The position numbers were made by a program, and so were the translations under genes. The notes beneath the pieces were generated by a model. The model did no database searches, was not told the origin of the DNA, and saw only the letters and a list, made by a program, of their open reading frames with translations. From positions 1 through 47,636 of the forward strand of contig NZ_BCRP01000019.1 of assembly GCF_001552655.1 (NCBI RefSeq): a stretch of 47,636 bases of DNA. Direction: 5' to 3'. This document shows, piece by piece, positions 29,500 through 44,865 of the stretch. How positions within the stretch are numbered: position 1 is the stretch's first letter; each line of letters starts with the position of its first letter. Source of the stretch: Alicyclobacillus kakegawensis NBRC 103104 (GTDB lineage: Bacteria > Bacillota > Bacilli > Alicyclobacillales > Alicyclobacillaceae).

Positions 29500-30351
29500 T
29501 CACACCCTTACAGGACGTCTGGGCTGGAGCCCAGTCTCGAGATGGCGGCGGTAGAACTCGGCCGGCGACAGGTAGTGCAAGCCGGAATGCAATCGGCGGT
29601 TGTTGTACCGGCTCACGAATTCCACGACCGCCTGATATGCCTCGGCGTAGGTCTCGAACTCGTACATGGACAAGCACTCATCTTCGAGAAGCCTGTGGTA
29701 CGACTCAATGTATGCGTTCATATTCGGTGTCTTGGGCGGTATACGCTCGTGTAGGACATTCCATCGCTCACACTCCGATTCAAACACATGACTCACAAAC
29801 TGGGGGCCATTGTCTGAACGGATAACGGGCAATGGTAAATTACGCTGAAGAATCCGACGCTTCCACAGTGCTGTCCGAAAAGCTTCAACGGCATGTCTGG
29901 CTTCGCAGGTGAGACCGATATGATATCCCACAATCTGCCTGTCATACACGTCGATGTACGACAGCACAAAGAAGAAGCGATCCTCTCCCGTGATGTATCC
30001 GTACTTCACATCCACCTCCCAAAGCTGGTTCGGTCCTGTGATGGTGCGGTTCTGTGCCAACTTCCTCGGGGTTTTTTGGCGAAGTTTCCGTTGTGGCCGC
30101 AGGACATCCAGTTCCTTACACAGGCGGTACACCTTTTTCTCGTTCACCACGAGTGTATGGTCCTGTCGGAGCATATGGGTCAGCTTGCGGTACCCATATG
30201 CGTAACCGTCACCGGCAATGGATTCCATAATCCATTCCTTGATCTGTTCATCACTGACCTTGCGACCATCCACAGTCCGTGAATACCCAGGAATGGGGCG
30301 TCCACCCGAAGTGGTATGCGGCCTTCGCGCCCGTTTTTCGAGCGCGCACGA
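29500..30351 (-). pseudogene. IS3-family (IS150-like) transposase OrfB, without OrfA
   Basis: The integrase core is intact: the HTH-like YGYRKLTHMLR region near the start, WEVDVKYGYI (first Asp), VIRSDNGPQFVS (second Asp) and NAYIESYHRLLEDECLS (Glu). The C-terminus YLSPAEFYRRHLE is family-typical. Upstream of about 30351 the open frame continues into unrelated DNA (the IS1634 fragment side) and no OrfA is present. The element is therefore a 5'-truncated remnant that could not make the usual OrfAB fusion. Confidence 0.88.
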
Positions 30352-30451
30352 TTTTTGACAGGAATTTCGCCGGCCGGTGTGGAATCCAGTAGCTCGTTGC
30401 ATCTTCGGACGGGAGGATTTCCAGTTGCTCGGCGGCATTCGTACGTTTGTC

Positions 30452-30945
30452 ATGGGACCCGCGCCTGTACTCGCTCGTCTCATCGATTGGCTGGGGTGGG
30501 TCGACATCATTGACCAGGGAGTGTCCCGATCGGACTGCAAACTGTCGGTCGGCTTACGCACCAAGGCGTTGCTCATAAACGTGGGGACCAACCGGGAGGC
30601 TCTGTACCGTGTAGAGGAGTTCTATGCCCAGCACGATACAGAGGTGCTGCTGGGCGAAGGCGTTTCCGCCGAGGATCTCAACGATGATGCCTTGGCGCGT
30701 GCGTTGGATGCTCTCTACGAGGCTGGGCCGGAACGGCTGTATACCACCATGGCTTTGCAGACCCTGCGGAAACTGCGGGTGATGGACGATGCCGATGACC
30801 TCATCCCCATTCATGCGGATACCCCCTCGCTCTCGGTCACGGGCGAGTATCTGGACCAGACGGAGTTTCGCATTGACCGGGGGTTTTCGAAGGACCATCG
30901 GCCGGACCTGAAGCAGATCGTCTTTGGGCAAGGTACTTGTGGAGA
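30452..30945 (+). pseudogene. IS1634-family (DUF4277-type) transposase, N-terminal fragment
   Basis: About 165 residues match the start of IS1634-type transposases: APVLARLIDWLGWVDIID, then REALYRVEEFYAQHDTEVLL, NDDALARALDALYEAGPE, IHADTPSLSVTGEY with the first catalytic Asp, and FSKDHRPDLKQIVFG. The similarity ends at about 30945 and the frame runs on into unrelated sequence to a stop at 31036. The DDE core beyond the first aspartate is missing. Confidence 0.87.
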
Positions 30946-31941: not shown

Positions 31942-31966
31942 TGTAACCGCTCACGCTGTTTGGCGG
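31942..31966 (+). repeat. Terminal inverted repeat, left end of element 1
   Basis: It begins TGTAACCG and contains the 17-bp core CTCACGCTGTTTGGCGG. Bases 31945-31952 (AACCGCTC) also pair with GAGCGGTT (31972-31979), followed by a T-run, so the end doubles as an intrinsic terminator. Confidence 0.85.
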
Positions 31967-31984
31967 AAGACGAGCGGTTTTTTG
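31945..31984 (+). terminator. Terminator embedded in the left end of element 1
   Basis: AACCGCTC and GAGCGGTT form an 8-bp stem with a 19-nt loop, followed by TTTT. It would stop outside transcription entering the element. Confidence 0.55.
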
Positions 31985-32014
31985 TTGCATTCGTTGACGG
32001 AGGGTTTTCCCGTT

Positions 32015-32050
32015 GATTGTCGTATGACGATTCATATCGTACCGACAATC
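32015..32050. repeat. 36-bp imperfect palindrome inside element 1
   Basis: GATTGTCG at the left pairs with CGACAATC at the right, and the centre TATGACGATTCATATCGTA is also nearly symmetric. TGACGG lies just before it (31995-32000). It may be a transposase-binding or operator site near the end of the element. Confidence 0.55.
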
Positions 32051-32071
32051 ATCGACAGGGGGCATAAAAGA

Positions 32072-32114
32072 AGAAGAGAGACCTTCAAGGTTTGCCGGCC
32101 TCGGTCTCTCTTCT
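32072..32114 (+). promoter_or_regulatory. 12-bp-stem leader hairpin before the zinc-finger gene
   Basis: AGAAGAGAGACC (32072-32083) pairs perfectly with GGTCTCTCTTCT (32103-32114), 36 bp before the ATG. A structurally equivalent hairpin lies at the same place in element 2 (44264-44312). No T-run follows, so it may control translation, mRNA stability or transposase supply. Confidence 0.6.
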
Positions 32115-32150
32115 GCTGGGTCACGGTTCTCACCGTGCCCTAACTGAGTT

Positions 32151-32759
32151 ATGTCTCAATCTTATACCATCCCCTTTCCCGACGTCGAGTCCTACCTGCA
32201 ATTTTGTGAGGATCCGGATCTGGACCGGCTTCGCCCGCCGAGATGTGGTCATTGCGGACATTCTGTCTTGCATCGCCACGGCAGTTATAAGCGCAACGTG
32301 TGGGCAAAGGAACGGTCGTGGCGTATCCTGGTGTTCCGGTTCCGCTGTGCGAATCCGGAGTGTAAGCGAACCTGCAGTGTGTTGCCTAGTTTCGTGGGAC
32401 GGTACGAGCGGTTTGTCTGGGACGTCCAGGAGCAGGTGTGCACAAATGTGGATACACAGCACTCCATGGAGGAGGCGGGCAGGGCGGTCCCCGCTCCGGT
32501 CGGGCCGATTTGTACCCGTACAGTGTGGCGGTGGTTCAGGCGTTGGCGGGCGTACATGAACGAGTTGGAGAGCCAGTTCTGGGAATACGTGATTTCGCTC
32601 GATCCCGCTCTTCATATGCCGAGGGGTCAGGAGCGGCCCACCCGCCGTCTGCAATACTGGCAGAAGGTTTGGATGCAGCTGGTGCCAAAGAAAGTGAACG
32701 TTCGACTCTTCCATGGCTTGTATCGTCTTCGCCAGTCGTGTGCAGCCTATATGGTCTAA
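32151..32759 (+). CDS. Transposon zinc-finger protein (DUF6431-like)
   Basis: The 202-residue basic protein has an N-terminal zinc ribbon: RCGHCGHSVLHRHG near 31-44 and FRCANPECKRTCSVLP near 62-77 (C-x2-C ... C-x4-C). A helical region with GPICTRTVWRWFRRWRAYMN near 121-140 looks like a DNA-binding helix-turn-helix. Proteins of this kind regularly precede DDE/AAA transposon genes in Firmicutes. I recall the family as DUF6431 but could not confirm it. A role in DNA recognition at the ends or target, as TniQ does in Tn7-like elements, is inference. It is followed 86 bp later by the transposase. Confidence 0.75.
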   Translation: MSQSYTIPFPDVESYLQFCEDPDLDRLRPPRCGHCGHSVLHRHGSYKRNVWAKERSWRILVFRFRCANPECKRTCSVLPSFVGRYERFVWDVQEQVCTNVDTQHSMEEAGRAVPAPVGPICTRTVWRWFRRWRAYMNELESQFWEYVISLDPALHMPRGQERPTRRLQYWQKVWMQLVPKKVNVRLFHGLYRLRQSCAAYMV

Positions 32760-32845
32760 ACCATCCCACAATTTATGTCTATGGAGCCTTCTCGCCCTCT
32801 CGGCTGAGAATGGGGTTGTACCCATTCTGGAAGGGAGATGGTGGA

Positions 32846-34099
32846 ATGGACCGGAAGCGTGCGGAGGAGATTGCGGCGTTTCGATATGGGGCGATTGCTC
32901 CCATTGTGAGCCGGCAGACACCGCTGTCCCCAGGGGAACTGCGTGCGTATCTCGAACATGCGGTGAAGCAGTCCTATGTGATCCCAGGCACCACAAGAAC
33001 GACGCTCAGCGTGCGGACCTTGGAGCGGTGGATTGCGGCGTACAGAAAGGGCGGGTATGACGCCTTGCTTCCCAAGACCCGCAGCGATAAAGGCCGCCAC
33101 CGGCTGCCGGACGAGGTGATTCAAAAGGCCGTGGCGTTGCGCAGGGAGCGGCCCGAGCGCAGTGTGGAGCAGATCATTCTCTTGCTGGAGGAGAGTGGGG
33201 TTGTGGCGCCGGGCACGGTGGCGCAGAGCACCCTGGCTCGCCATTTACTCCGTGCTGGAGCAAGCCGCAAGGATCTGCTGCGCTCCGACGACCGGGGATA
33301 CCGGCGCTTTGAGGCAGAAGATGTCCATGTGCTGTGGCAGGCAGATTTTAAGCATGCGCTGTATCTCCCTGATCCGAATCATCCACAGCGCAAGAAAAAG
33401 ACCGTTCTATTCGCCATCCTGGACGATTACTCGAGACTCATTGTCCACGGGCAGTTTTATTGGGACGAGCAGTTGCCCCGCCTGGAAGACAGTTTGAAAA
33501 AAGCGATCCTGCGGTATGGCATCCCCGAACAACTGTACGTGGACAACGGTGCGGTTTTCTCATCCCAGCACCTGCGGCGCATCTGTGGAAAGCTTGGGAT
33601 TCACCTTTCGCACAGCAAACCCTACCGCCCTGCTGGGCGGGGCAAAGTAGAACGCCTGTTCCGGTTTCTCGACACGAGCTTCATCCCCGAAGCCTACGAA
33701 CAAGTCGAGGCAGGGCATATCCGGACGCTTGGCGAGTTGAATGACGCATTTTGGGCCTGGGTCGAGGGGTATTACCACCTGCGAAAACATGGCAGCACGG
33801 GACAGTCTCCCAAGGAACGGGCAGCGGCGAGCAACCGTACACCCAAGCGGGTTTCAGAAGCGGAACTGACAGACATTTTCCTGTGGGAGGAGGAGCGTAC
33901 CGCCGACAAGGCGAACTGTGTCTCCCTGATGGGCAACACCTATGAGGTGGACCCTGAACTGGCCAGGCGGAAAGTGATGCTGCGCTATGACCCGTTCGAT
34001 CTTACGGTGATCCAGGTCTGGAGCGAGGGTAAAAGATGGCCTGACGCCAAGCCGGTGGATTTGACCCGACGTTATGACCGCGGGTTACCTCGACGGTGA
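32846..34099 (+). CDS. TnsB/Mu-type DDE transposase (probable C-terminal frameshift)
   Basis: The protein is 417 residues from ATG 32846, which follows GGAGATGGTGG. It has N-terminal HTH domains (TLSVRTLERWIAAYRKGGYD). The RNase-H core carries ADFKHALYLP (Asp), YVDNGAVFSSQHLRRI (Asp) and RPAGRGKVERLFRFL (Glu near 270). Next comes the Mu C-terminal beta-barrel, with NTYEVDPELARRKVMLRYDP near 371-390. The frame stops at 34099, but the next frame continues with SFFEAADNRRRQAAQ and ends in the ATGA overlap with the ATPase start at 34218. So the ancestral gene probably ran to 34220, and a one-base indel near 34075 removed its last 40 residues, the part that would contact the ATPase. Confidence 0.88.
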   Translation: MDRKRAEEIAAFRYGAIAPIVSRQTPLSPGELRAYLEHAVKQSYVIPGTTRTTLSVRTLERWIAAYRKGGYDALLPKTRSDKGRHRLPDEVIQKAVALRRERPERSVEQIILLLEESGVVAPGTVAQSTLARHLLRAGASRKDLLRSDDRGYRRFEAEDVHVLWQADFKHALYLPDPNHPQRKKKTVLFAILDDYSRLIVHGQFYWDEQLPRLEDSLKKAILRYGIPEQLYVDNGAVFSSQHLRRICGKLGIHLSHSKPYRPAGRGKVERLFRFLDTSFIPEAYEQVEAGHIRTLGELNDAFWAWVEGYYHLRKHGSTGQSPKERAAASNRTPKRVSEAELTDIFLWEEERTADKANCVSLMGNTYEVDPELARRKVMLRYDPFDLTVIQVWSEGKRWPDAKPVDLTRRYDRGLPRR

Positions 34100-34217
34100 A
34101 AAGCGACAAGGAAAGTACGGACCACGTCTCCTTCTTCGAGGCAGCGGATAACCGGCGCAGGCAGGCGGCTCAGGGATCCCCCCTGCGATTTTCGGATGTA
34201 AAGCGTGGTGAGCACTC

Positions 34218-35039
34218 ATGACGCCACAGGAGAAGTGGGGATTAGAAAAGCTACCATTTCGACGGGACGTGGAAGGGCATGAGTTTTACGAGACAGCCGC
34301 ACACCGGGAAGCCTTGGCTCGTATGGAATGGGTGCTTGAACAAAACGCACTGGGTTTACTGACCGGTGAAGTGGGCAGTGGGAAATCCACCCTCATCCGG
34401 CGACTGATTGGCGGGTTGGATGAGATGAAATGGCTTCCCATCTACATTTGTATACCCGGCCTGCGACCAAGGGAGTTTTATGGAGAACTTCTCTCCTATC
34501 TTGGGGAGGCGAGTCCTTATTCCGTCAACCGGGCGAGGAAGCTCTGGAATGAACGAGTCCAGGCTGGCGGGCTTACTGACGAGAGACGGTGGGTGGTGGT
34601 GATGGATGAGGCGCAGGATATCTCCGATGAGATGTTGCAGGAGTTGAGATTTGTTCGTAACCAGAGGATGGACACCGTGTCCCCGTTCCCGCTGATTTTG
34701 GTTGGGCAACCGGAGTTACGGCGGAAACTGCGGCTGAAGAAATACGAGGCCATTTCGCAACGGATTGAGATGGTGTACCACCTGACCGGAATGACCAGGG
34801 AAGAGACAGCAGACTATGTGCGTCACCAGATTCGGCTGACCGGAAAGGCAGCGCCGTTGTTTACGGACAGCGCTTTGCACCTGATTTATGGAGCAAGCCG
34901 AGGAATTCCACGGGTGGTCCATCAAATCTGCTTGCAAGTCCTGTACGATGCAGCGGCCAAGAACAGTGATGTGGTGGAGGACGCCTACATCCAGCGAGTG
35001 TTGGCGGACCAGCAGTGGCAACGGGGGGCGGCTGGATAA
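34218..35039 (+). CDS. ExeA/TnsC-like AAA ATPase of element 1
   Basis: The 273-residue P-loop ATPase begins LEKLPFRRDVEGHEFYETAA, like ExeA and TniB-type proteins. It has Walker A GEVGSGKST (about 50-58), Walker B VVVMDEAQD near 129, sensor-1 PLILVGQPELRRKL and the late arginine-rich RGIPRVVHQICLQV. In Mu/Tn7-type transposition the AAA partner chooses target DNA and activates the transposase. The ATG overlaps the extended transposase frame by 4 bp. Confidence 0.88.
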   Translation: MTPQEKWGLEKLPFRRDVEGHEFYETAAHREALARMEWVLEQNALGLLTGEVGSGKSTLIRRLIGGLDEMKWLPIYICIPGLRPREFYGELLSYLGEASPYSVNRARKLWNERVQAGGLTDERRWVVVMDEAQDISDEMLQELRFVRNQRMDTVSPFPLILVGQPELRRKLRLKKYEAISQRIEMVYHLTGMTREETADYVRHQIRLTGKAAPLFTDSALHLIYGASRGIPRVVHQICLQVLYDAAAKNSDVVEDAYIQRVLADQQWQRGAAG

Positions 35040-35122
35040 CCGGCCGCTCCTACACACCTGAAGTGACTGACGGACCAACGACCACCAAGATGGCGGAATG
35101 TCGGTACAACTCTCACGCCAAT

Positions 35123-35143
35123 GGCGGTGAGAAATTCACCGCC
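35123..35143 (+). terminator. Hairpin merging with the right end of element 1
   Basis: GGCGGTGA (35123-35130) and TCACCGCC (35136-35143) form a perfect 8-bp stem with loop GAAAT. The right arm is the inner end of the terminal inverted repeat. No T-run follows. Confidence 0.6.
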
Positions 35144-35163
35144 AAACAGCGTGAGTGGCTACA
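35139..35163 (-). repeat. Terminal inverted repeat, right end of element 1
   Basis: Read on the minus strand it begins TGTAGCCA and contains the same 17-bp core as the left end, with two mismatches over 25 bp. Confidence 0.85.
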
Positions 35164-35358
35164 GCAAGCATCATGCTTTGGCTATGGATATTTAATCCTT
35201 CATATGGACTTTTAAATGCTGTTCTAGAGTCCCTTGGCCTTTCACAGTCGCAATGGATCTACGGTTCTGGAACGGCAATACCCTCGCTGGTTCTAATGTC
35301 AACGTGGAGTATAGGAAATACCGTCGTGATATTCTTGGCTTGGAGCCACTGCACTTGA
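35164..35358 (+). pseudogene. MalF-type permease fragment cut by element 1
   Basis: Starting at the first base after the element, the frame reads ASIMLWLWIFNPSYGLLNAV, then WSIGNTVVIFLA, matching the middle of CUT1 sugar permeases (the segment before the EAA loop). The frame then shifts at FLA and no EAA loop follows. The 5' part of the gene is not on the left side of the element, so the insertion was followed by deletion or rearrangement. Confidence 0.75.
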
Positions 35359-35483
35359 CAGCGCTCACATCATGCCCATATATTATCTATACGTCTAGAT
35401 GATATTAGGAATTCGCCGGATGATGGCCCCTCTGCACGTCAATTCGGTGTATGAGACCTGTAACGTCACGGGAGGGATGACAG

Positions 35484-36221
35484 CTGAGAGAGTTTATTGA
35501 CCGAGATTCTCCCCTGCCTGTATACGCTCAGATTGCGGAGCATCTGAAACAAATGGCCGATCAACAGTTTGTCGAAGGACGTACAAAGTTCTACACGGAT
35601 GACGAATTGATTGCCATGTTCGGTGTCTCCCGCATGACGATCCGCCAAGCCGTTCAAGTGTTGGTGGACGAAGGGATTCTGGAACGCATTCAGGGAAAGG
35701 GCACGTTCATTGTTAAAAAGAAAAAGATGGAGACTGACATTGAGCGGCTGGACACATTTTTTCGAGGCTGGTATTTGGAGCAGGACTTCAGTGTGGAGCT
35801 GTTGGTCAAGCAAGTGGTTCCGTGTCCGGACAAGTACTGCAGCCGGCTGGGACTCACACCTGAGTCGGAAGTCATTCAGGTGAAGAGAAGGAGGTTGTCC
35901 AAGGGAGTTCCGGTTGTGGTCGACAACCGTTACATGCTTAAGGAGTTCGGGGACAAAATATCCGACGAGGAGCTGGTTCGATATTCGTTTTCGGAGATCT
36001 TCCTCCGGAAATTCAATCTGAAGTTCTCAGAAGGAACCATTGAGATTGAGGCTACTCTAGCGGATGAGAAAACCGCAGAGTTGTTAACCGTACCGATCGG
36101 TTCACCGATTCTCTACCGACGCATCGAACTGATGGTGGACCATCACGGTTGCATATTCGTTGGCGAATCTTCGTACAGAGGAGACATGTTCAAGTACAAG
36201 TCCGTGCTTCGTTCCAAATGA
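35484..36221 (+). CDS. GntR/HutC-family regulator with UTRA domain
   Basis: The winged helix is clear (TDDELIAMFGVSRMTIRQAV), followed by ERIQGKGTFIV and a UTRA ligand domain ending FVGESSYRGDMFKYKSV. Family proteins start about 25 residues before the first ATG (35553). Here that stretch is present in frame (REFIDRDSPLPVYAQIAEHL), but its only plausible start is CTG 35484, 8 bp after GGAGGG; a stop codon lies just upstream. I therefore extend the gene to CTG, giving 245 residues. It probably controls the MFS / HD / lyase genes downstream in response to a carboxylate or phosphorylated ligand. Confidence 0.88.
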   Translation: MREFIDRDSPLPVYAQIAEHLKQMADQQFVEGRTKFYTDDELIAMFGVSRMTIRQAVQVLVDEGILERIQGKGTFIVKKKKMETDIERLDTFFRGWYLEQDFSVELLVKQVVPCPDKYCSRLGLTPESEVIQVKRRRLSKGVPVVVDNRYMLKEFGDKISDEELVRYSFSEIFLRKFNLKFSEGTIEIEATLADEKTAELLTVPIGSPILYRRIELMVDHHGCIFVGESSYRGDMFKYKSVLRSK

Positions 36222-36270
36222 GCATAGAAGCACTAGTGACGCAAGGGAAATCACGGATTTGGGTAGTGTG

Positions 36271-36284
36271 TGAAAGCGTTTCCT
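36271..36284 (+). promoter_or_regulatory. Candidate CcpA (cre) site
   Basis: TGAAAGCGTTTCCT matches the cre consensus at 13 of 14 positions and lies between the GntR gene and the transporter. Carbon-catabolite repression of the transporter cassette is plausible. Confidence 0.5.
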
Positions 36285-36354
36285 CGATCCTCCAATTATC
36301 GTCCGCACGACCAGTCTACTGATCACATACCGAAGCGGAGAAAGGAGTACAACG

Positions 36355-37641
36355 ATGAGTGCCTTTGCAACACAGACGCCTACAGAAACGGATGACAGAT
36401 TGACACCTGTACAAAAAAGGACGCTAGCCGCCGCCTGGGCAGGCTTCAGCCTAGATAGTTACGCAACCATCATCTATTCCCTAGTCCTTACGTCAGTGAT
36501 GGTAGCATTTCAACTTTCCCCGGCTGCGGCTGGATTGATTAGCACAGTGACGCTGGTTGCATCCGCGGTGGGAGGCGTGTTCTTCGGCATCCTTTCGGAC
36601 TATTGGGGCAAACGAAATGTGATGATTATCAGCATCTTGCTGTTCGCCTTCTTCAGTTTAATGTCTGCTGTCGCACAGAATTACGGTCAGTTGATGGTTT
36701 CACGCGCACTCGTGGGATTTGGGTTCTCTGGTGAATACACAGCGAGCATGATGATGGTAACCGAGGTATGGCCGGCTCATAAAAGAACCGTTGCCAGCGC
36801 ATTAACACAAAGCGGTTGGGCCATCGGTTTCTTTGTCGGTAGCTTGGTTACCTTGTTGTTGTTGCCCACATTTGGATTTCGGTCCGTATTCTTGGCAGGG
36901 GCCATTCCTGCGCTGTTTGTCCTGTACATTCGGTTTGGGCTGCCGGAGTCCAAGGTATGGGAAGAAACGCGAAAGGCGCAACGCGCATCTAAACGGGACA
37001 AGACCTTCTCTTTCTTCCAGTTATGGTCCCCGGTGCTGTTGCCCACTACCCTCATTACCATGGCCATCGCGACGTTTAACCAATTCGTCTATTGGGGAAT
37101 CAACTCTTGGCTTCCGGCCTTTCTGGAATCGCCGCAATCTAAAGGCGGTGCAGGCCTTGGATTTGTACATGGAATGAGTTGGCTCATGGTGTTCAACGCA
37201 GGGTCATTTCTAGGTTACATTTGTTTCGGCTGGATTGCGGACCGTATAGGCCGAAAGAAAGCCCTGTTGCTGTATTTGATTGCCATGATGGTCTTCCTTG
37301 GGATCTTTGTCGGCTGGGTGCGAGCCGAATGGTTGTCCTATCTCTTTGCTCCGGTCGTTGGATTTTTTGGCACAGGCTACATCTCTGCCTTTGGCGCTAT
37401 GTTTGCCGAATTGTTTCCCACCACGGCCCGAGCGACTGGACAGGGATTCGTGTATAACTTCGGCCGGGGTGTGGCAGGTTTCGTGCCCTGGATTCAGGGG
37501 CTTCTGGTGAGCAGAATGGGATATATGTCAGCTATGTTGATTCCCATCGGGTCGGCGGTGCTGTTGCTCATCTGCATATTCATTGTCCGGGACACACAGG
37601 GACAACCCCTTGTCAGAGACCTGGACGATCTGAAACAATAA
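36355..37641 (+). CDS. MFS transporter (organic-acid/sugar-acid type)
   Basis: The 428-residue protein has 12 predicted membrane spans. The loop 2-3 motif is GILSDYWGKRNVM near 75-87; its repeat in the second half is GWIADRIGRKKALLL near 291-305. ELFPTTARATGQGF near 350 is typical of aromatic-acid, dicarboxylate and sialate symporters. The ATG at 36355 follows GGAGAAAGGAG. It is followed by an HD-domain protein and a PrpB-like lyase, suggesting import of a carboxylate that the lyase cleaves. Confidence 0.93.
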   Translation: MSAFATQTPTETDDRLTPVQKRTLAAAWAGFSLDSYATIIYSLVLTSVMVAFQLSPAAAGLISTVTLVASAVGGVFFGILSDYWGKRNVMIISILLFAFFSLMSAVAQNYGQLMVSRALVGFGFSGEYTASMMMVTEVWPAHKRTVASALTQSGWAIGFFVGSLVTLLLLPTFGFRSVFLAGAIPALFVLYIRFGLPESKVWEETRKAQRASKRDKTFSFFQLWSPVLLPTTLITMAIATFNQFVYWGINSWLPAFLESPQSKGGAGLGFVHGMSWLMVFNAGSFLGYICFGWIADRIGRKKALLLYLIAMMVFLGIFVGWVRAEWLSYLFAPVVGFFGTGYISAFGAMFAELFPTTARATGQGFVYNFGRGVAGFVPWIQGLLVSRMGYMSAMLIPIGSAVLLLICIFIVRDTQGQPLVRDLDDLKQ

Positions 37642-37693
37642 ACATGACACAGGCCAAGTTAGAGAAGGACCATGACTGCGAAGGAGCACTTGC

Positions 37694-38251
37694 ATGAACA
37701 AAGAACCGTTGAACATCGAGAATATTTTACCGGAAGTGAATTGGATTTCGGATCTTGAGACCCGCAAAAAGGTCTGCTTGATTTGGGAGCGATTGTGGCA
37801 AGAAAGTTCGTTTACTGATATCAATCAACTGCCGGTCGTACCGAGTACGACGTACCCGCACATTCCGCATAATCGTGCAGTGGTCCACATGGCGGTTCGA
37901 GTGGCGGAAGTGTTGGAAGAGATCCATGGTGTGAAGATCGATCGCGATGACTTAATCGCCGCAGCGCTCTTGCAGGACGCGAGCAAGTTGGTGGAATACC
38001 GGAAGACGGAGGACGGCGGATACGAGTTCACCGAAATGGGAAGCATGTTCCAACATGCGTTCTATGCAGCACATCTCGCTTTGCAATATGGGCTGCCGCA
38101 TACGGTCGTACAGGCTATATTCACCCACACGCCGGACAGTGCCCAGTTTCCGCCAAGTTTAATTGCACGGATTCTGTTTTACGTGGACCAGATTGATACA
38201 GCGGCCTTGGGCGTTGACCGTTGGAAGAAGACGAGTATGATTTATCGGTGA
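37694..38251 (+). CDS. HD-domain protein with an altered HD motif
   Basis: The 185-residue protein resembles small HD-superfamily metal-dependent phosphohydrolases: HIPHNRAVVHMAVRVAEVLE near 54-73, then LIAAALLQDASKLVEY near 87-102, and GLPHTVVQAIFTHT near 135. The position that normally carries the histidine of the HD pair is Q (QDASKL). The metal site may thus be weakened, unless other histidines compensate. It lies 52 bp after the transporter and 130 bp before the lyase. Its role in this cassette is unknown. Confidence 0.8.
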   Translation: MNKEPLNIENILPEVNWISDLETRKKVCLIWERLWQESSFTDINQLPVVPSTTYPHIPHNRAVVHMAVRVAEVLEEIHGVKIDRDDLIAAALLQDASKLVEYRKTEDGGYEFTEMGSMFQHAFYAAHLALQYGLPHTVVQAIFTHTPDSAQFPPSLIARILFYVDQIDTAALGVDRWKKTSMIYR

Positions 38252-38381
38252 ACACCGTCGTGCTGTCATGCACTCAATGCTTGGCGCGGTACATCGATGG
38301 CCAACGAACGACTGACAGTCGCATTAATGGTATATACTGTATTTTCTGGAAATTTTGCGGACGAGTTAGGGGTGCTCCAGC

Positions 38382-39302
38382 GTGACGTGGATAGTGGACC
38401 AAGAAGTGAGTCAGATCCAGCTTTCCGAGCAATTTAAATTTCTGATGAACGGGACGTCGATTCTCAAAATACCTGGTGTCCATGACGGAATGGCAGGGTT
38501 GATCGCCCGCAACGTTGGTTTCCAAGCCTTGTACCTGTCCGGAGCAGCCTTTACGGCAAGTCAGGGGCTGCCCGATCTCGGCATCATCCACTCCTCCGAG
38601 GTGGCGGCCAAGGCCAGGGAAATTATACGAGCTACCAACCTCCCACTCCTAGTGGATATTGACACCGGCTATGGGGGCGTTCTGAATGTTGCTCGAGCCG
38701 CTCGCGAAATGACAGAGGCCCGGGTGGCGGCAGTTCAAATCGAAGATCAGGCGTTGCCTAAGAAATGTGGGCACCTTAACGGGAAGGACCTGGTATCCAC
38801 CGAAGAAATGGTGCAAAAAATCAAGGTTATCAAAGAGGTCAGCCCGACATTGGCCGTGGTTGCGCGGACGGATGCGAAGGCTGTCGAAGGCCTCGAGGCT
38901 TGCATTAATCGTGCTCGTGCCTATGTGGACGCCGGCGCAGATGCCATTTTCCCTGAGGCGCTTACGAGTGAAGCCGAGTTTCGGCACGTGGCCGACGAAG
39001 TCCACGTCCCCTTGCTGGCGAATATGACGGAGTTTGGGAAGACACCCTATTTTACGGCACAGCAATTCGAGGACTGGGGATACCGCATGGTCATTTACCC
39101 AGTGACCTCCCTACGGGTAGCTGCAAAAGCCTATGAAAGAGTGTTTACGGAGATTATGGAGAAAGGGACGCAGAAAGACAGCTTGCCCAGCATGCAAACG
39201 CGGGAAGAGTTGTACGAAACAATTCAGTACTACGCGTTTGAATCACTGGACGGAAAGATCGCGAGAACCGTACTTCCTCAGTTGGGCAAGGAAAATGGAT
39301 GA
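38382..39302 (+). CDS. PrpB-like isocitrate lyase/PEP mutase superfamily enzyme
   Basis: The 306-residue protein has PGVHDGMAGLIARNVGFQAL near 27-46, the metal-binding LLVDIDTGYGG near 88 and the catalytic loop PKKCGHLNGK near 126-135, where KKCGH marks methylisocitrate lyase-type enzymes. It would cleave or form a C-C bond in a 2-hydroxy- or 2-methyl-dicarboxylate. No PrpC or PrpD is nearby, so classical propionate use is unlikely. The start is GTG 38382; no strong ribosome site is evident. It closes the GntR cassette and is followed by a strong terminator. Confidence 0.88.
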   Translation: MTWIVDQEVSQIQLSEQFKFLMNGTSILKIPGVHDGMAGLIARNVGFQALYLSGAAFTASQGLPDLGIIHSSEVAAKAREIIRATNLPLLVDIDTGYGGVLNVARAAREMTEARVAAVQIEDQALPKKCGHLNGKDLVSTEEMVQKIKVIKEVSPTLAVVARTDAKAVEGLEACINRARAYVDAGADAIFPEALTSEAEFRHVADEVHVPLLANMTEFGKTPYFTAQQFEDWGYRMVIYPVTSLRVAAKAYERVFTEIMEKGTQKDSLPSMQTREELYETIQYYAFESLDGKIARTVLPQLGKENG

Positions 39303-39386
39303 AGCATAAACCGCGCACGGAATTTACGATGGCACTGTGGCCGCGTCAACCTTTGTTTTGTGATTCACACCGCAGCAGACGGGAGA

Positions 39387-39429
39387 CCACGCACATCTGA
39401 AAGATGTGCGTGGTTCCTCTTTTTTTGGG
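39387..39429 (+). terminator. Strong rho-independent terminator after the PrpB-like gene
   Basis: CCACGCACATCT (39387-39398) pairs perfectly with AGATGTGCGTGG (39402-39413) around GAA, followed by TTCCTCTTTTTTT. Confidence 0.92.
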
Positions 39430-39544
39430 CAAGTGGCATCGGCGACAGACCAGGGAATGTGGATGGGGTTTGGCCATAGCCTGCTCAACGACCAGACGCT
39501 TGAATCCTGGAGTCAATTTCCGGCGCTTCCCTGGAATAACCTCC

Positions 39545-40490
39545 AAACCTTCAGTCAGTTTGCGTGGTTGGGAGTGACGCTTGAAACTGCCTCAGTATCC
39601 TCAGCGATCTTCGTCGACCTGCGAATAATCAGCTCGGAATTCAAGACATGGTCACGTCCGTCGCTGCCCGTGCCAAGCGAACCTACATTCTGTAGGGCGT
39701 CTACCAAATCGGCAGCAACGACCCCCATCTCTGTTTTCGGATGCGTCATGGTTGTGAGCGGTACCTCCCCCATGTTGGCTATGGGGGCATCATCGAAACC
39801 GGCAATAGATAAATCTTCGGGCACCCAAATGCCGCGCTCGCCTAGAGCCGCAAGCAGCTCAAACGCGACCTCATCATTGTAGCACAGCACTGCCTCCGGC
39901 CGTACGTCAGACGCTGCCGACGCAGTGCGCTGAGCAAAGCTCTGGGGATGACTTCGCGCCGCGTCTCCGTCTCGTACATCGCGATAAAGCGGGAGGCGGG
40001 CAGGACGCCCTGCGCCTTCAGCGCCTTCAAGAAGTCGCGCATGCGGAATTTGCCCTGGACGTCATCCGAATTTGAACAGCCCGCCGATGCGGGTGTGCCC
40101 CAATTCCATCAGGTGCTGGGTAATGGTCTGCGCAGCCCCTACATCGTCAATGCGAATGGTCCGCGTGCACAGTTCGAGATACGAGGCGTGGAGCATGACC
40201 ATCGAGATGTTGCGCTCGACAATCTGCAGATACAAGTCGAGAGTCGGGGTGGCCAGGGCGCTTTTCGTCGGTTCAACAATCAACCCGTCCACGTGCGTCT
40301 CCAAGATGCGCCGCAGGGCGTCCCGCTTCCGGGAGAAGTCGTTGGATGTACTGAACAACAGCACCGAATAGCCGGCCTCGCTCAGCTCCAACTCGATGCC
40401 GCGGATGATAGCAGGAAGATAGAGTCGTTGACGTACGTGGTCAGCACGTCAATCATCCGGGTGGGTACAGAGGTGCGCGAAACGTGGGGT
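39545..40490 (-). pseudogene. AraR-like (GntR-LacI chimera) repressor, multiply frameshifted
   Basis: The ligand domain of an AraR-type repressor can be read in pieces on the minus strand: IDVLTTYVNDSIF, frameshift, IELELSEAGYSVLLFSTSND, HVDGLIVEPTKSA, QHLMELGHTRIGGLFKFG, frameshift, VQGKFRMRDFLKALKAQG, frameshift, and LCYNDEVAFELLAALGERG with PEDLSIAGFDDAPIANMG and LTTMTHPKTEMG. At least three single-base indels break it and the N-terminal GntR-type HTH is missing. It probably belonged to an arabinose or related pentose cluster now lost. Confidence 0.87.
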
Positions 40491-40588
40491 CAATGCAGAA
40501 TTGGTTCTAGAAAGTTGCATCAAATTTGCGCTAACTGTCCCTGCTCCGCCTGCTATCGTAGTTGGTAGCAGACGAAAGGGGTGCTGTT

Positions 40589-41173
40589 ATGCTCGGCAGA
40601 ACTCACATGGCCATCGGGGCCGTTGCTTCCGTTGCAGTCGCACCATTCATTGTGCATGCGCCTTGGGACGCCTTACGCAATTTCGCACAGGGCCGTGAAT
40701 GGCAAGCGGCCTCCGGTGCGCTTGTTGTCCAAGCATTGCTCGTCGTCACAGCCGTTGTCGGGAGTTTGCTCCCCGACCTCGACCAGCGAAATTCGCTCGC
40801 CGCGCGCAAAGTGGAGCGGGTGGGGCAGGTCGTGGCGTTCGTACTCATGGCCGCGCTCCTTTTCCTCATGCATTGGCAGACACACTGGGCATTGTGGGCG
40901 CTGGCCATAGTGGTGAGCTTCGCCCTGGGCGCGAACAGCAATATCGCACGCAGGATTGGCCTTGGCATTACAGGTGCAGGACTGCTGTTTCTCGCGGTAC
41001 ATGGGGCGATTCTGCTTACGGTTTGGATCTTGGACGCGATGTTCACCGAACACCGGACGTTCACGCACAGCTTACTAGGCACGGCCTTGTTGGTTGCTGG
41101 AGCATTCACTGTGTTGGATACTCTCGGTCAGGTGCACGGCTGTTACAGCCAACGTATAATGGCCATAAGTTGA
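40589..41173 (+). CDS. YdjM-like membrane metal-dependent hydrolase, C-terminus cut by element 2
   Basis: The protein starts LGRTHMAIGAVASVAVAPFI and contains LLPDLDQRNSLAARK and the HRTFTHSLLGT motif near residue 153, as in YdjM/LexA-regulated membrane hydrolases. It has about five membrane segments. The start ATG 40589 follows GAAAGGGGTG. Element 2 begins at 41141, so native sequence ends after codon 184 and the last ten residues (CYSQRIMAIS) are encoded by the transposon end. No convincing remainder is seen after 44401. Confidence 0.8.
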   Translation: MLGRTHMAIGAVASVAVAPFIVHAPWDALRNFAQGREWQAASGALVVQALLVVTAVVGSLLPDLDQRNSLAARKVERVGQVVAFVLMAALLFLMHWQTHWALWALAIVVSFALGANSNIARRIGLGITGAGLLFLAVHGAILLTVWILDAMFTEHRTFTHSLLGTALLVAGAFTVLDTLGQVHGCYSQRIMAIS

Positions 41174-41176
41174 CGG
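41141..41176 (+). repeat. Terminal inverted repeat, left end of element 2
   Basis: It begins TGTTACAGCC and holds GGCC at 21-24 and TGACGG at 31-36. A further TGACGG at 41195-41200 gives the two-site spacing expected of TnsB-type binding sites. Confidence 0.75.
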
Positions 41177-41264
41177 TGTTTGATGTCCGGAAACTGACGG
41201 ATTCGGTGACCAGAGTAGGCAAACGGGGCAACTCGGGTGAGTTGCCCTGTTGCAGCTGCAGTTT

Positions 41265-41528
41265 TTACAGATAGACCTTGGCGTCGTGGGTCCCCGCTGT
41301 TCTTAACGTGAGTACCGTTGATTGGCCATCCGTCGACCCGGGAAAGATGATGCACCAACTGCCCGACATGTCCATCTCCGGTTGCCCCCACACAAACTGC
41401 CTGCCAATTCGCAAACCAATCACTTCTCCACAGTGCAAAGACTTGGAGCCGTCCCCACATTGCACCCAGAATCGGTCGAACTGTCTGTCGTAACGAAGGG
41501 TGCCGCGCTTTGCAATTCGACTTGTCAT
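41265..41528 (-). CDS. DUF5348-like small protein of element 2
   Basis: The 87-residue protein with RGTLRYDRQFDRFWV, SLHCGEVIGLRIG and a late SGSWCIIF follows the DUF5348 pattern (short beta-rich protein with a L-H-C-G-E motif). It overlaps the ATPase stop by 4 bp, so it is translated with the transposition genes. Element 1 lacks it. DUF5348 proteins are common on mobile DNA of Firmicutes; their function is unknown. Confidence 0.7.
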   Translation of the reverse strand: MTSRIAKRGTLRYDRQFDRFWVQCGDGSKSLHCGEVIGLRIGRQFVWGQPEMDMSGSWCIIFPGSTDGQSTVLTLRTAGTHDAKVYL

Positions 41529-42325
41529 GACAACTCCCCCTGTATGACCAGATTCACGATGTGATCATCAATGATCCGGTGCTTCGTCTGGGCACCGTAC
41601 ATGAGGCAGTGCGTGCACACCTTGTTGATCATGCGTGCTGCACCACTGGAGAATCGATAAATCTCGCCGATGGCCTTGTCCGAGAAAATCTCGTGCTCGG
41701 CCCCGGCATAAGCCAGGTGACGTCGGATGTACTCGCCGACCTCTGCCCGGTCGTAGTACGGGAGCTTGCATTGTATGTCGATTCGTTGGCGGATGGCGGC
41801 GTACGCCTGGAGGTTTAGACGCTCCCAGAGTTCGCTCTGCCCGACCAGGATGAGCGCCATGGGGCTTTGTGCGTCCATGCGGAAGTTGAGCAGGAAGCGC
41901 ACCTCCTCTAACATCTCGCGATCCAGCAGATGAGCTTCGTCTACGACGCAAACGGGCTGCACGTGGTGAATGCCGCGCATGAGTTCTATCTCGCGATGCA
42001 ACTGTCGCTTTGCGTCTCCGCGGTAGAACTTGGACTCACACCCGAGCTGTTCCAACAATCCTTTGTAGAAGTGGCGAGGCGTGAGTCTCGAGTCGGACAG
42101 GTAGAGGACTTGGTACTTGGCGCTATCCAGTGTCTCCGCAAAACGGCGAATGGTCGTGGTCTTTCCCGTTCCGCAGTTTCCGGTGACAACACAGAACAGT
42201 TGCCGCTGTGCCGCGTAGAAAAGCCGCCCAAGCGTATCCTCCAACGATAGCGATGTGTAGAGCTCGCCGGCCGGAATGTTTCTGGCAAACGGGGTGTGCC
42301 TAAACCCGTAGAATGGCTCAAACAT
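41525..42325 (-). CDS. ExeA/TnsC-like AAA ATPase of element 2
   Basis: The 266-residue ATPase begins MFEPFYGFRHTPFARNIPAG, typical of ExeA-type proteins. It has Walker A GNCGTGKTT (about 48-56), Walker B PVCVVDEAHL near 125, sensor-1 MALILVGQSELWERL and GAARMINKVCTHCL. It is intact. Its start lies inside the end of the transposase gene (8-bp overlap). It is clearly related to, but not a copy of, the ATPase at 34218-35039. Confidence 0.88.
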   Translation of the reverse strand: MFEPFYGFRHTPFARNIPAGELYTSLSLEDTLGRLFYAAQRQLFCVVTGNCGTGKTTTIRRFAETLDSAKYQVLYLSDSRLTPRHFYKGLLEQLGCESKFYRGDAKRQLHREIELMRGIHHVQPVCVVDEAHLLDREMLEEVRFLLNFRMDAQSPMALILVGQSELWERLNLQAYAAIRQRIDIQCKLPYYDRAEVGEYIRRHLAYAGAEHEIFSDKAIGEIYRFSSGAARMINKVCTHCLMYGAQTKHRIIDDHIVNLVIQGELS

Positions 42326-43656
42326 CTCCCTTCACCTCGTTCCACGCACAGGTGTAGGAGATGGCCCGTGCCTGTCTGTGTTGACGTTGCTCATGCTGTT
42401 TCTGCGCAGCGCCCAGCAGCCTGGACGCGTCTGCTGGTTGGGACCCCAAGTGTTCCGGCAACTTGGGGCGTTTGCCAGCCCGCTCCCCGATGACCATGGG
42501 GCGAGCTTTCCACGGTTCATATCCCTCGTACTCGATGGTCACCTCGCTGATGTCTGCCGGGTCGTAAATGACGTCCACTGTGCAACCGATGAACGACAAG
42601 CCTACCTCATACTTCCGGTCCATGAAGCTGATGCATCCGGACTTGTCCACTTTACGTGTCTCGGCATGCAGGAACGCATTTGCGAGGACCTCCGGTTCAA
42701 CAAATCGCAGCGCCTTGTGGTCACTACGGTACGCCGTTTCTGGGCTTATGGACTGATTGTCTGTGGAGAGCGCGGCGTGCGGTTTGTTCTAGTAACATTC
42801 CGACAGCCATACGTTGAATTTTTGATTCAGCTGCTCAAGGGTCTGTGGCTTGTCCAGGACAATCTCGCTGAGAAATGAATCGACCGTCCGATTGAATTTC
42901 TCCACCTTGCCCTTACTTTCGGCAGCGTACGGCTTGGTGTAGAGGAGCCGTATCCCAAGCTTGGAACAGGTCCTGACCATCCAACGGGTTCGATATTGTT
43001 TTCCGTTGTCGAAGTACACCGAATCCGGGGCGCCGTATTTCTGGATGGCTTGGCGAAAACCATCTTCCACGATGGCCTGGTCGAGGGTGGGGTAAAACTC
43101 GGCATGAAGTACGTACCGCGTGGTGTCGTCCAGGAACACGACGAGGTAGACCTGTTTCCTTGCACCGCCAGGTCCGATGGGCAGATGCCATAATTCGTTT
43201 CGATGCCGGCGCTGAAACCGGCGGGCAGCCGCACCGGTTGCGGCATACATCCGCATCTGACGGGAGCTGTACCTACGCTCCGCCAACTTCTCCTGCAGGG
43301 TGCTGCGCTTAATCTGGCCCGGCTTTGCATGTCCCTCCCACTCAAGGATCTGAATGATCTGGGAGATGCTGCGCGTGGGAACCTCCCGTCGCAGCAAGAT
43401 GGCCTGTTCCAGGAGCGACTCCGGGATGACCTCTGGTCTTGGATACACCTTGGGTCTCGGCTTGAGGCCCTCGAATCCTTCCTTCCGGTACTGGGCCAGG
43501 TACCGACGAATGGTTCGTTCGGAGAGACCCGTTTGTGCGCAGATCTCGGCCCGGATCTGCCGCGCACGGCCTGCATCCAGGCCGTCTGCAAGCAACCGAG
43601 ACAGCATCTGCACCCGATTTGCGGCGATTTCCCTCCGCCTTCCTCGAATCTTTCAT
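42318..43656 (-). pseudogene. TnsB/Mu-type DDE transposase of element 2, broken twice
   Basis: From ATG 43656 the frame reads MKDSRKAE and then shifts: one extra G near 43637 displaces EIAANRVQMLSRLL. The long middle part is intact, with HTH domains (TGLSERTIRRYLAQYRKEGF), HLPIGPGGARKQVYLV, YFDNGKQYRTRWMV (Asp) and AAESKGKVEKFNR (Glu). After LSECY an in-frame TAG (42791-42789) interrupts it. The same frame then continues through NKPHAALSTDN and the Mu C-terminal domain (GCTVDVIYDPADISEV) to 42318. Both lesions look recent because the rest of the frame is open. Confidence 0.88.
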
Positions 43657-43712
43657 GCCAACCACCTCCATTTTGGTAGGGTCAGCATGAACGTACTTCC
43701 ACCAGACGCGGA

Positions 43713-44297
43713 TCAACACGCCGAACGGGTATGTCTCCACAAATGCAGATTTGCAAGCGGTCGGACAGCACGCGCCAGCCAACCGGGATGAGGCCCCACG
43801 ACCCGTCCGATTCGATGGAGTGCGGTTTGCGGATGAGCGGACGAACTCTCCACAGTCCACTGGAAGCGCTCAGCGATGGACTCCAGGCAGCCGGCGGCAT
43901 ATGGGGCAAAGTCCTCAAACCACTGGCACCAGCGCCGCAGCGTGGATTCCTCAACGCAGGCAGGCGTCGCCTTATCTGTGACAGCATCCTCAATGACTTG
44001 TGCCTCGTGGCGGCGGTAGGGAACCAGAAAGTTTGGCAGTTCGTGGTGGATCTTGTTACAATCCCGGCAGCGCAGTCGGCGGATGATGAGTTTTACCTTG
44101 TCGCCGGAGCTCTGAACCCAGGTCCTTTTCCGACTCCCGATGACGCGAAGCTTACCTTGGCAACAAGGGCAAGGGACATTCTCCGCACTCTGGACAAAAA
44201 ACACCGGTGGTATGGCTTTCAACAAGCTTAAAATTTGATATACTGACCATATTCGAGTGATGGGACGCCCCTTGTGATGCTGTTTGCCCAGCACCAC
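43713..44297 (-). CDS. Transposon zinc-finger protein of element 2 (DUF6431-like)
   Basis: The protein carries VPCPCCQGKLRVIGSRKR and LRCRDCNKIHHELP, two zinc-binding cysteine pairs, then a helical region (ESTLRRWCQWFEDFAPYAAG) and LHRIGRVVGPHPGWLARAVR near the end. The ATG at 44297 lies inside the leader hairpin, so the true start is probably one of the TTG codons at 44225 or 44222, 30 residues before the first cysteine pair, matching the protein of element 1. It is intact, unlike the transposase after it. Confidence 0.75.
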   Translation of the reverse strand: MVLGKQHHKGRPITRIWSVYQILSLLKAIPPVFFVQSAENVPCPCCQGKLRVIGSRKRTWVQSSGDKVKLIIRRLRCRDCNKIHHELPNFLVPYRRHEAQVIEDAVTDKATPACVEESTLRRWCQWFEDFAPYAAGCLESIAERFQWTVESSSAHPQTALHRIGRVVGPHPGWLARAVRPLANLHLWRHTRSAC

Positions 44298-44312
44298 GTA
44301 AATAGGGGCGTC
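44264..44312 (-). promoter_or_regulatory. Leader hairpin before the zinc-finger gene of element 2
   Basis: GACGCCCC (44264-44271) pairs with GGGGCGTC (44305-44312). The loop contains GATGCTG (44277-44283) and CAGCACC (44290-44296), which pair in part. It occupies the same position as the hairpin at 32072-32114 in element 1 although the sequence differs. Confidence 0.55.
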
Positions 44313-44365
44313 TTTCCTTTCCTAGGATATGGCCATTTTACTCAGCAATTTTCGGACAGGCAATA

Positions 44366-44401
44366 CCGTCAGCTTTCGGCCACTTCATTGTGGCTGAAAC
44401 A
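44366..44401 (-). repeat. Terminal inverted repeat, right end of element 2
   Basis: Read on the minus strand it begins TGTTTCAGCC, with GGCC and TGACGG at the same positions as the left end. Confidence 0.75.
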
Positions 44402-44525: not shown

Positions 44526-44651
44526 ATGTATGGAGTGTTTGGCGGGTTTACTCGTTGGGCGGTTGTGTTTTTGATTATCTTCGTGCTGTTCTTCTTGCTT
44601 ATTCCTGGATATGCAGCTCCAGCCGCAACTGCAGCAGGCCCAGTGTGTTAA
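44526..44651 (+). CDS. Hydrophobic micro-protein 1 (YjcZ-like)
   Basis: The 41-residue protein has one membrane segment (WAVVFLIIFVLFFLLIPGY, about 11-29) and a small Ala-rich tail ending VC. GAGGAGGTGG precedes the ATG by a few bases. It resembles the YjcZ-type spore membrane micro-proteins of Bacilli in size and layout (glycine/aromatic start, single helix). It shares that hydrophobic core with the next gene. Confidence 0.72.
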   Translation: MYGVFGGFTRWAVVFLIIFVLFFLLIPGYAAPAATAAGPVC

Positions 44652-44730
44652 TGGACGCAAGCTTAGGGTAGTCAATCCTTGTATGATGCCATGGAAATGT
44701 CTACACGAAACCCGGTAGGAGGAATCTTAA

Positions 44731-44865
44731 ATGTATGATGGCGGATGCTTTGGTGCCTATACCCGTTGGGCGGTTGTATTCCTGATTATCTTCGTGTTGT
44801 TCTTCTTGTTGGTACCGGGGTACTCGGCAGTGACAACCATCTGCACTACAACTCCCGTCTGTTAA
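44731..44865 (+). CDS. Hydrophobic micro-protein 2 (YjcZ-like paralogue)
   Basis: The 44-residue protein has RWAVVFLIIFVLFFLLVPGY near 12-31, almost identical to the helix of the preceding gene, and a Thr/Cys tail also ending PVC. TAGGAGG lies 9 bp before ATG 44731. The pair arose by tandem duplication. The conserved terminal Cys may form disulfides at the spore or cell surface; this is inference. Confidence 0.72.
   Translation: MYDGGCFGAYTRWAVVFLIIFVLFFLLVPGYSAVTTICTTTPVC

Follow-up and report, generated by a model that had tools for sequence, protein, structure and literature searches.

DUF6431 zinc-ribbon genes accompany a mobile family of TnsB/TnsC-type transposons that has two decayed copies in Alicyclobacillus kakegawensis

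Introduction

A passage in PMC11406308 defines Tn7-like transposons by homologues of TnsB and TnsC combined with TnsA and/or TniQ, and for the IS21 elements an excerpt of PMC10293859 states that no target selector has been reported so far. Here we analyze two small transposons, E1 and E2, which lie in a contig of Alicyclobacillus kakegawensis NBRC 103104 (NZ_BCRP01000019.1, positions 1 to 47,636; this whole stretch is called the window in the following). They belong to a family in which a TnsB-type transposase gene and a TnsC-like ATPase gene travel without TnsA or TniQ and are regularly preceded by a gene for a zinc-finger protein, DUF6431 (PF20020). The family is widespread yet unstudied. 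Our search, conducted on titles and abstracts and with ISfinder outside its scope, found no literature on the set of DUF6431, transposase and ATPase and no mention in it of DUF5348, the product of a fourth gene in E2, in line with the initial annotation of the window, which knew of no described mechanism for these genes. DUF6431 itself appears in one paper, in a table listing genes of Ruminococcus gnavus. From the comparisons presented below, we consider it probable that the family consists of autonomous transposons of the Mu/IS21 style, in which DUF6431 would be a required and tightly dosed DNA-binding partner.

Comparison with described transposon families

The family resembles Tn7-like elements and CRISPR-associated transposons (CASTs) in its TnsB-type transposase, its TnsC-like ATPase and its TGT/ACA tips, so that the TnsB and TnsC part of the Tn7-like definition is present. 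It differs from them in having DUF6431, in having neither TnsA nor TniQ and in a target duplication of 6 rather than 5 bp (6 bp in 31 insertions; 5 bp in three copies of a third subfamily in genome G030 and at locus L160). No gene for TnsA or TniQ lies in E1 or E2, and the profiles PF06527 and PF08722 match neither the genome harbouring the window (G000) nor G030. Since G030 has recent copies of the family without any TniQ or TnsA match, the gene set is not Tn7-like by the definition of PMC11406308, and TniQ is not needed. One TniQ and one TnsA match are found in a further genome, G006, about 4 kb apart at 451-456 kb and distant from the copies examined there.

With IS21 (IstA/IstB) the family shares a cargo-free pair of transposase and ATPase helper as well as a match of the transposase to IstA in the PDB. 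Unlike IS21, it has DUF6431 as a third gene in front, its ATPase matches AAA_22 with the IstB family not among the matches listed, and the IS21 transposase model reaches 49.7 bits against a cut-off of 160. The combination of an rve plus Mu_C transposase with an ATPase resembling MuB (PHROG 296, 'DNA transposition protein', E 2.8e-23) is shared with Mu and other transposable phages, but the present elements carry no phage genes and measure 3.2 kb. As to Tn552 and Tn5053 (TniA/TniB), the former compared by its generally known traits, the ATPase of E2 exceeds the TniB cut-off of PF05621 (24.9 vs. 22.4 bits), which is not listed for that of E1, while AAA_22 scores far higher in both; in contrast to those transposons, E1 and E2 lack TniQ and have no resolvase among the open reading frames (ORFs) listed inside them. 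The transposase core matches IS481 (195.7 bits for E1 and 156.5 for the fragment in E2), for which part of PMC11406308 also states TGT/ACA tips; yet both values fall under the family cut-off of 224 bits, and Mu_C domain, ATPase and DUF6431 are additions with respect to IS481.

Mobility, gene content and distribution

The family is, judged by its copies, mobile: the unit bounded by the TGT/ACA tips occurs at many insertion sites, where a 6-bp duplication flanks it. G030 contains three identical E1-like copies, and G006 two E1-like copies plus several E2-like ones, all at differing places. When the tips were set by aligning copies with one another, an exact 6-bp duplication was present in 11 copies out of 11 (L034-L036, L052, L053 and L056-L061), and genome G429 has it in seven of the nine copies having both tips; these two are the unbiased counts. 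Wider scans gave exact 6-bp duplications in 19 of 53 rows (17 distinct loci) and in 14 of 30 rows, figures affected by many rows that are cut by contig ends, truncated or misplaced at the tips, the scan moreover rewarding duplications. With singletons included, 31 insertions combine the 6-bp duplication with the same tips. Several contigs of 3.2-3.4 kb in drafts of Alicyclobacillus and Desulfosporosinus carry exactly one element, which is what collapsed repeats would give. Copies elsewhere thus end at the very repeats that the initial annotation had seen by eye, and its refutation by differently placed ends did not occur.

DUF6431 is a regular part of the element, as the initial annotation had proposed, under purifying selection and diverging together with the transposase. 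It lies upstream in 38 of the 44 transposase copies that were found via transposase or ATPase and had enough upstream sequence; conversely, the transposase comes next in 98 of 111 DUF6431 matches with enough sequence, and the ATPase follows the transposase in 71/74. Among the six copies without DUF6431 in front, L104 has an IstB-like gene (identified by eye) in its place, suggesting that an IS21-type element inserted there; L116 shows a deletion with the leader hairpin kept; and L062 has DUF6431 displaced. The ratio of nonsynonymous to synonymous substitution rates in DUF6431 is 0.09-0.28 in 10 of 11 pairs, the remaining pair being saturated, and DUF6431 distances track transposase distances with r 0.96, a value reached by none of 2000 permutations.

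Of 398 genomes sampled from the phylum, 95 contain DUF6431, whereas it was found in none of 14 control genomes; a gene that is accessory to DDE/AAA transposons and has not been studied is therefore common. The set is annotated on plasmids of Streptomyces virginiae, A. dauci and R. albus. For the upstream gene in Mycobacterium intracellulare, the DUF6431 match (E 0.0014) stays below the cut-off, and the gene table, which is incomplete, lists Acidithiobacillus caldus without the ATPase and Thermobacillus without DUF6431. A small gene of DUF5348 type follows the ATPase in L039, L055, L063, L071 and L072 (by sequence) and in Alicyclobacillus dauci (by Pfam), and the small gene at this place in Ruminococcus albus gives no DUF5348 match in Pfam. 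In copies from G429 and G406, the ORFs behind the ATPase are likewise small (103 and 91 aa) but unlike DUF5348.

Some loci deviate from simple insertion. L132 and L133, which lie about 15 kb apart on the same strand of G429, have ATAAGG in common, to the right of one copy and to the left of the other. A composite transposon, a cointegrate or recombination between copies would each produce this pattern. The flanks of L037:1246-4456 are 6 bp in reverse-complementary, not direct, repetition (GAAGAG/CTCTTC). In L118 and L119, about 3.5 and 3.9 kb of other DNA interrupt the transposase match. Viral scans marked one locus in one scan and none in another.

The two copies in the window

E1 (31942..35163, plus strand, 3222 bp) and E2 (41141..44401, minus strand, 3261 bp) have the same order of DUF6431, rve/Mu_C transposase and AAA_22 ATPase, as originally noted. 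In E1, the left (31942..31966) and right (35139..35163, minus strand) tips agree at 23 of 25 positions, or 24 of 36, and coincide with those of L034-L036, which have 6-bp duplications; in E2 the agreement is 26/36, with tips as in L064, another copy with a 6-bp duplication. The maximum in 300 block shuffles of the flanks was 21 for E1 and 22 for E2, so the observed matches were never reached. The initial annotation was correct on these TGT-starting ends except that it placed E2 two bases off, its true right tip being 41141.

The genes of E1, all on the plus strand, encode a DUF6431 zinc-ribbon/helix-turn-helix (HTH) protein in one frame (32151..32759, 202 aa; PF20020 E 1.7e-8), the transposase (32846..34099) and a TnsC/MuB-like ATPase (34218..35039, 273 aa; PF13401 E 3.6e-21), with no fourth gene behind the latter. 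E2, on the minus strand, has its DUF6431 gene in two frames (43713..44250; PF20020 E 1.7e-29), followed by a transposase gene (42321..43695; main frame 93.9% identical to L065), an intact ATPase gene (41525..42325, 266 aa; PF13401 E 4.8e-24) and, overlapping the ATPase stop, the gene for DUF5348 (41265..41528, 87 aa; PF17295 E 4.5e-7, 30.2 bits vs. a cut-off of 22.8), so that the content of three genes first ascribed to both elements holds for E1 only. Nor are the copies intact. By comparison with relatives in G030 and G024, a frameshift near 34081 in the E1 transposase puts about 46 C-terminal residues into another frame (34081-34215); the protein reads as 417 aa, against 456-464 in relatives. 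The E2 transposase combines a frameshift near the start, an in-frame TAG and a deletion of eight residues, among them the first catalytic Asp, its Mu_C part scoring 18.5 bits, under the cut-off of 21.7. Both elements are without target duplication, with flanks CTTTTG/GCAAGC in E1 and TTTTAC/GCCGTG in E2. By their sequences, they are dead or dying copies of a probably autonomous transposon family.

Although the two elements are related, as initially stated, they are distant relatives from separate subfamilies according to sequence identity: 35% between their ATPases and 31-35% between E1-type and E2-type transposases. No further DUF6431 genes were found in their genome. A search of 41 genomes with the right flanks found no empty site of E1 or E2; the right flank of E1 had no true match beyond its own genome, and the matches of the E2 flank were other repeats.

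E1 and E2 are real minimal elements of TnsB/TnsC type without TnsA or TniQ, as first proposed. DUF6431 passes the PF20020 gathering score of 26.6 bits in E1 (34.6) and E2 (101.9); an alignment of 18 sequences has nine invariant columns, four Cys among them, and the E1 model (predicted local distance difference test, pLDDT, 87.4) consists of a helix, a zinc ribbon, an HTH and C-terminal helices. The transposase matches the TnsB of a CAST (E 3.6e-11) and the IstA of IS5376 (E 5.5e-10) in the PDB. For the ATPase (pLDDT 88.0), ShCAST TnsC and MuB match with Z 19.9 and 19.5, respectively.

A structured leader and a split gene

Between the left tip and DUF6431, at the start of the operon, the elements have hairpins, in a covarying structured leader that constitutes a new observation. 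The leader of E1 (32015..32150, plus strand; z of the minimum free energy -4.0) ends where DUF6431 starts and forms hairpins at 32015-32050 (stem 1), at 32072-32114 with a 12-bp stem (stem 2) and from 32121 on (stem 3). Over 60 leaders scored, z is -3 or lower in 35 and the best stem has at least nine Watson-Crick pairs in 44, the rest including truncated loci. For stem 2 of the E1 type, 18 leaders give pairing in 160 of 162 counted cells despite differing stem sequences, in a count that favours pairing by picking loop-centred arms as the best hairpins; the MAFFT alignment of these leaders was poor, and RNAalifold gave one main stem. In the E2 type, for which 19 leaders were used (L084 being left out of the 20 named), 88.4% of cells are paired, two-sided changes occur in 12 of 28 pairs, and the covariation score of 0.244, against 0.133 in shuffles, was reached by none of 500.

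The E2 leader (44236..44363, minus strand) begins with a promoter-like TTGCCT-17-TAAAAT (44363-44335); the corresponding -10-like motif, at the edge of the outer stem, is TATAAT in 15 of the 19 leaders. A promoter scan of E2 gave 3 vs. 1.5 expected. A Shine-Dalgarno-like AAAGGA precedes the inner hairpin (44312-44264), and the outer stem pairs with the start codon, ATG 44250, which lies within its 3' arm. A transcript from the element's own promoter would lack the 5' arm, whereas one entering from outside would include the arm and hide the start. Fold-back control in IS10 and IS50 is an analogue of such an arrangement; mRNA structure in transposase control is treated generally in part of PMC8450116. 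The zinc-finger ORF as listed for E2 (GTG 44297) begins within the leader hairpin, and the likely start, by comparison of sequences, is ATG 44250 in a different frame.

From this ATG, the E2 gene runs in frame 0 to a T6 run at 44201-44196, beyond which the zinc-ribbon body continues in the +1 frame. The same organization recurs in the family: of 24 distinct E2-type DUF6431 genes (the pattern search missed L084, L091, L092 and L077, which are outside the 24), 22 have the N-terminal part, conserved as MVIVSxYELIENP..GVF, and the zinc-ribbon body in different frames, the relation being +1 in 19 and +2 in 3; the remaining 2 have both in one frame. The junction has T6 in 20 genes, then T7, T5 and twice T4. 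Its Phe codons are TTT/TTC 43/3, as compared with 57/35 in the bodies (p 3.5e-5); hence the T run is kept beyond codon bias. A 0-frame stop follows within three codons of the run in 15/24. The split at a conserved T6 run suggests programmed frameshifting. With UUU U and the near stop, the junction resembles a +1 frameshift site, for which RF2 is a parallel; polymerase slippage or re-initiation would be alternatives. The initial annotation had not foreseen the tighter control of expression that leader and split frame suggest.

Target sites

Over the 31 insertions, 18 positions contain 3.36 bits of information, the random maximum being 2.29 in 2000 draws. The strongest positions of the duplication are 3 (A in 18/31) and 4 (T in 16/31); outside it, on the right side, A stands two bases out in 16/31, where G never occurs, and C three bases out in 19/31. 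This right-side asymmetry, with p 0.022 in 17 E1- and E2-like insertions, p 0.30 in the other 14 and p 0.059 in all 31, is a hint only. The many insertions that the initial annotation proposed to collect give a duplication of 6 bp and targets that are dispersed and weakly preferred. Site-specific target selection was rejected: the insertions are dispersed, and an ORF of at least 200 aa spans the insertion point in 14 of 20 joined empty sites, a count made without control.

What does DUF6431 contribute to transposition?

In the mechanism that we consider probable, the DDE transposase (rve plus Mu_C) would nick and join the ends like MuA, TnsB and IstA, and the ATPase would capture target DNA as MuB and TnsC do and recruit the tail of the transposase, the very part lost in E1; these steps are drawn from the named families, from which it also follows that, with TnsA absent, transposition should be replicative and yield a cointegrate. 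DUF6431, with its zinc ribbon and HTH, would be needed in the transpososome as a limiting assembly factor touching the transposon end and/or the target beside the ATPase. Its dose would be held low at the RNA level: in the E2 type, transcripts from outside would sequester the start codon by folding, Shine-Dalgarno sequence and start would be kept apart by a hairpin, and the protein would need a change of frame at U6.

Several observations weigh against this reading. DUF6431 is absent from the front of 6 of the 44 copies, and in L071, L072 and L122 no insertion, deletion or displacement of the kind described above accounts for it. E1-type DUF6431 genes are in one frame, without split; no promoter-like site was found in the E1 type, the scan of E1 giving 0 promoters, not above shuffles, and 2 terminators vs. 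3.2 expected, likewise not above shuffles. The outer stem of E2-type leaders is 85.8% paired with zero two-sided changes, so that its support is weak. For the DUF6431 model, no match in the PDB reaches E 0.001, the best in Foldseek being the ISCth4 transposase (E 0.032), and the matches listed show no relation to TniQ or to a solved family, which excludes nothing; the putative function of DUF6431 follows from fold class and conservation. The ATPase model fits Cdc6/ORC proteins equally well (Z 19.6); the fold alone is hence undiscriminating, and gene context settles the TnsC/MuB-like assignment.

Other roles for DUF6431 have to be weighed against that of a required partner. It is a reasonable possibility, though less than even, that DUF6431 has no role at the target and only binds ends or helps assembly, like a separate DNA-binding domain of another transposase: the zinc ribbon and HTH, the codivergence with the transposase, the ISCth4 match and sub-cut-off matches to the N-terminal parts of ISH6 (E 2.9e-4) and ISL3 (E 0.0055) transposases would fit, but these matches are weak (rmsd, the root-mean-square deviation, 7.8) and the binding site is putative only. 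Somewhat less likely, DUF6431 might replace TniQ as a selector of target and orientation, reading target bases beside the right end and recruiting the ATPase. A two-fold symmetric transposase alone should yield a symmetric preference, and the target information above the random maximum, the A/C preference on the right and its asymmetry in the 17 and in all 31 insertions would point this way; yet the other 14 show no asymmetry, the position was chosen after looking, and the preference is weak at dispersed sites and could be caused by transposase or ATPase. The independent sequence-specific selector envisaged by the initial annotation consequently finds no direct support. The fuller version, a TnsB/TnsC class in which DUF6431 replaces TniQ for target and orientation and is kept in short supply by a fold-back leader and programmed +1 frameshifting, appears doubtful; if true, transposition would be limited via the selector and not via the transposase. 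That DUF6431 is instead a regulator of the element, a repressor or RNA-binding autoregulator outside the transposition machine, is unlikely: it is the first gene of the operon, directly after the structured leader, but a repressor need not be so constant in a 3-kb element.

Two further alternatives concern the RNA. We hold it rather doubtful that the N-terminal frame of the E2 type encodes a leader peptide of its own, with the body arising through re-initiation rather than frameshifting. The nearby 0-frame stops and a body-frame GTG just ahead of the T run in 15 of 22 split genes would favour it; the other seven have GAG, GGG, GCG or AGG there, the T run exceeds codon bias, and L079 has both parts fused in one frame. 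A guide RNA for target choice, suggested by a conserved structured RNA within the left end, is highly improbable, given that identical copies lie at unrelated targets and the structure overlaps Shine-Dalgarno sequence and start codon. This candidate was discarded: none of 20 insertions had a word common to the leader and its own target that was longer than the control maximum, and no Rfam match was obtained.

The family offers a small system of two or three proteins, free of TnsA and TniQ, for learning what AAA ATPase transposons need for target capture and orientation, and its split gene and leader a directly testable case of control via an accessory factor.

Other features of the window

Adjoining E1, on the minus strand (29500-30591), lies a further integrase-like transposase ORF with a weak match to the E2-type transposase. 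At 44538-44822, two 74-bp repeats, 80% identical, are located inside short hydrophobic ORFs, which we take to encode small proteins of YjcZ type; stretches resembling these repeats are present in all 41 relatives searched.

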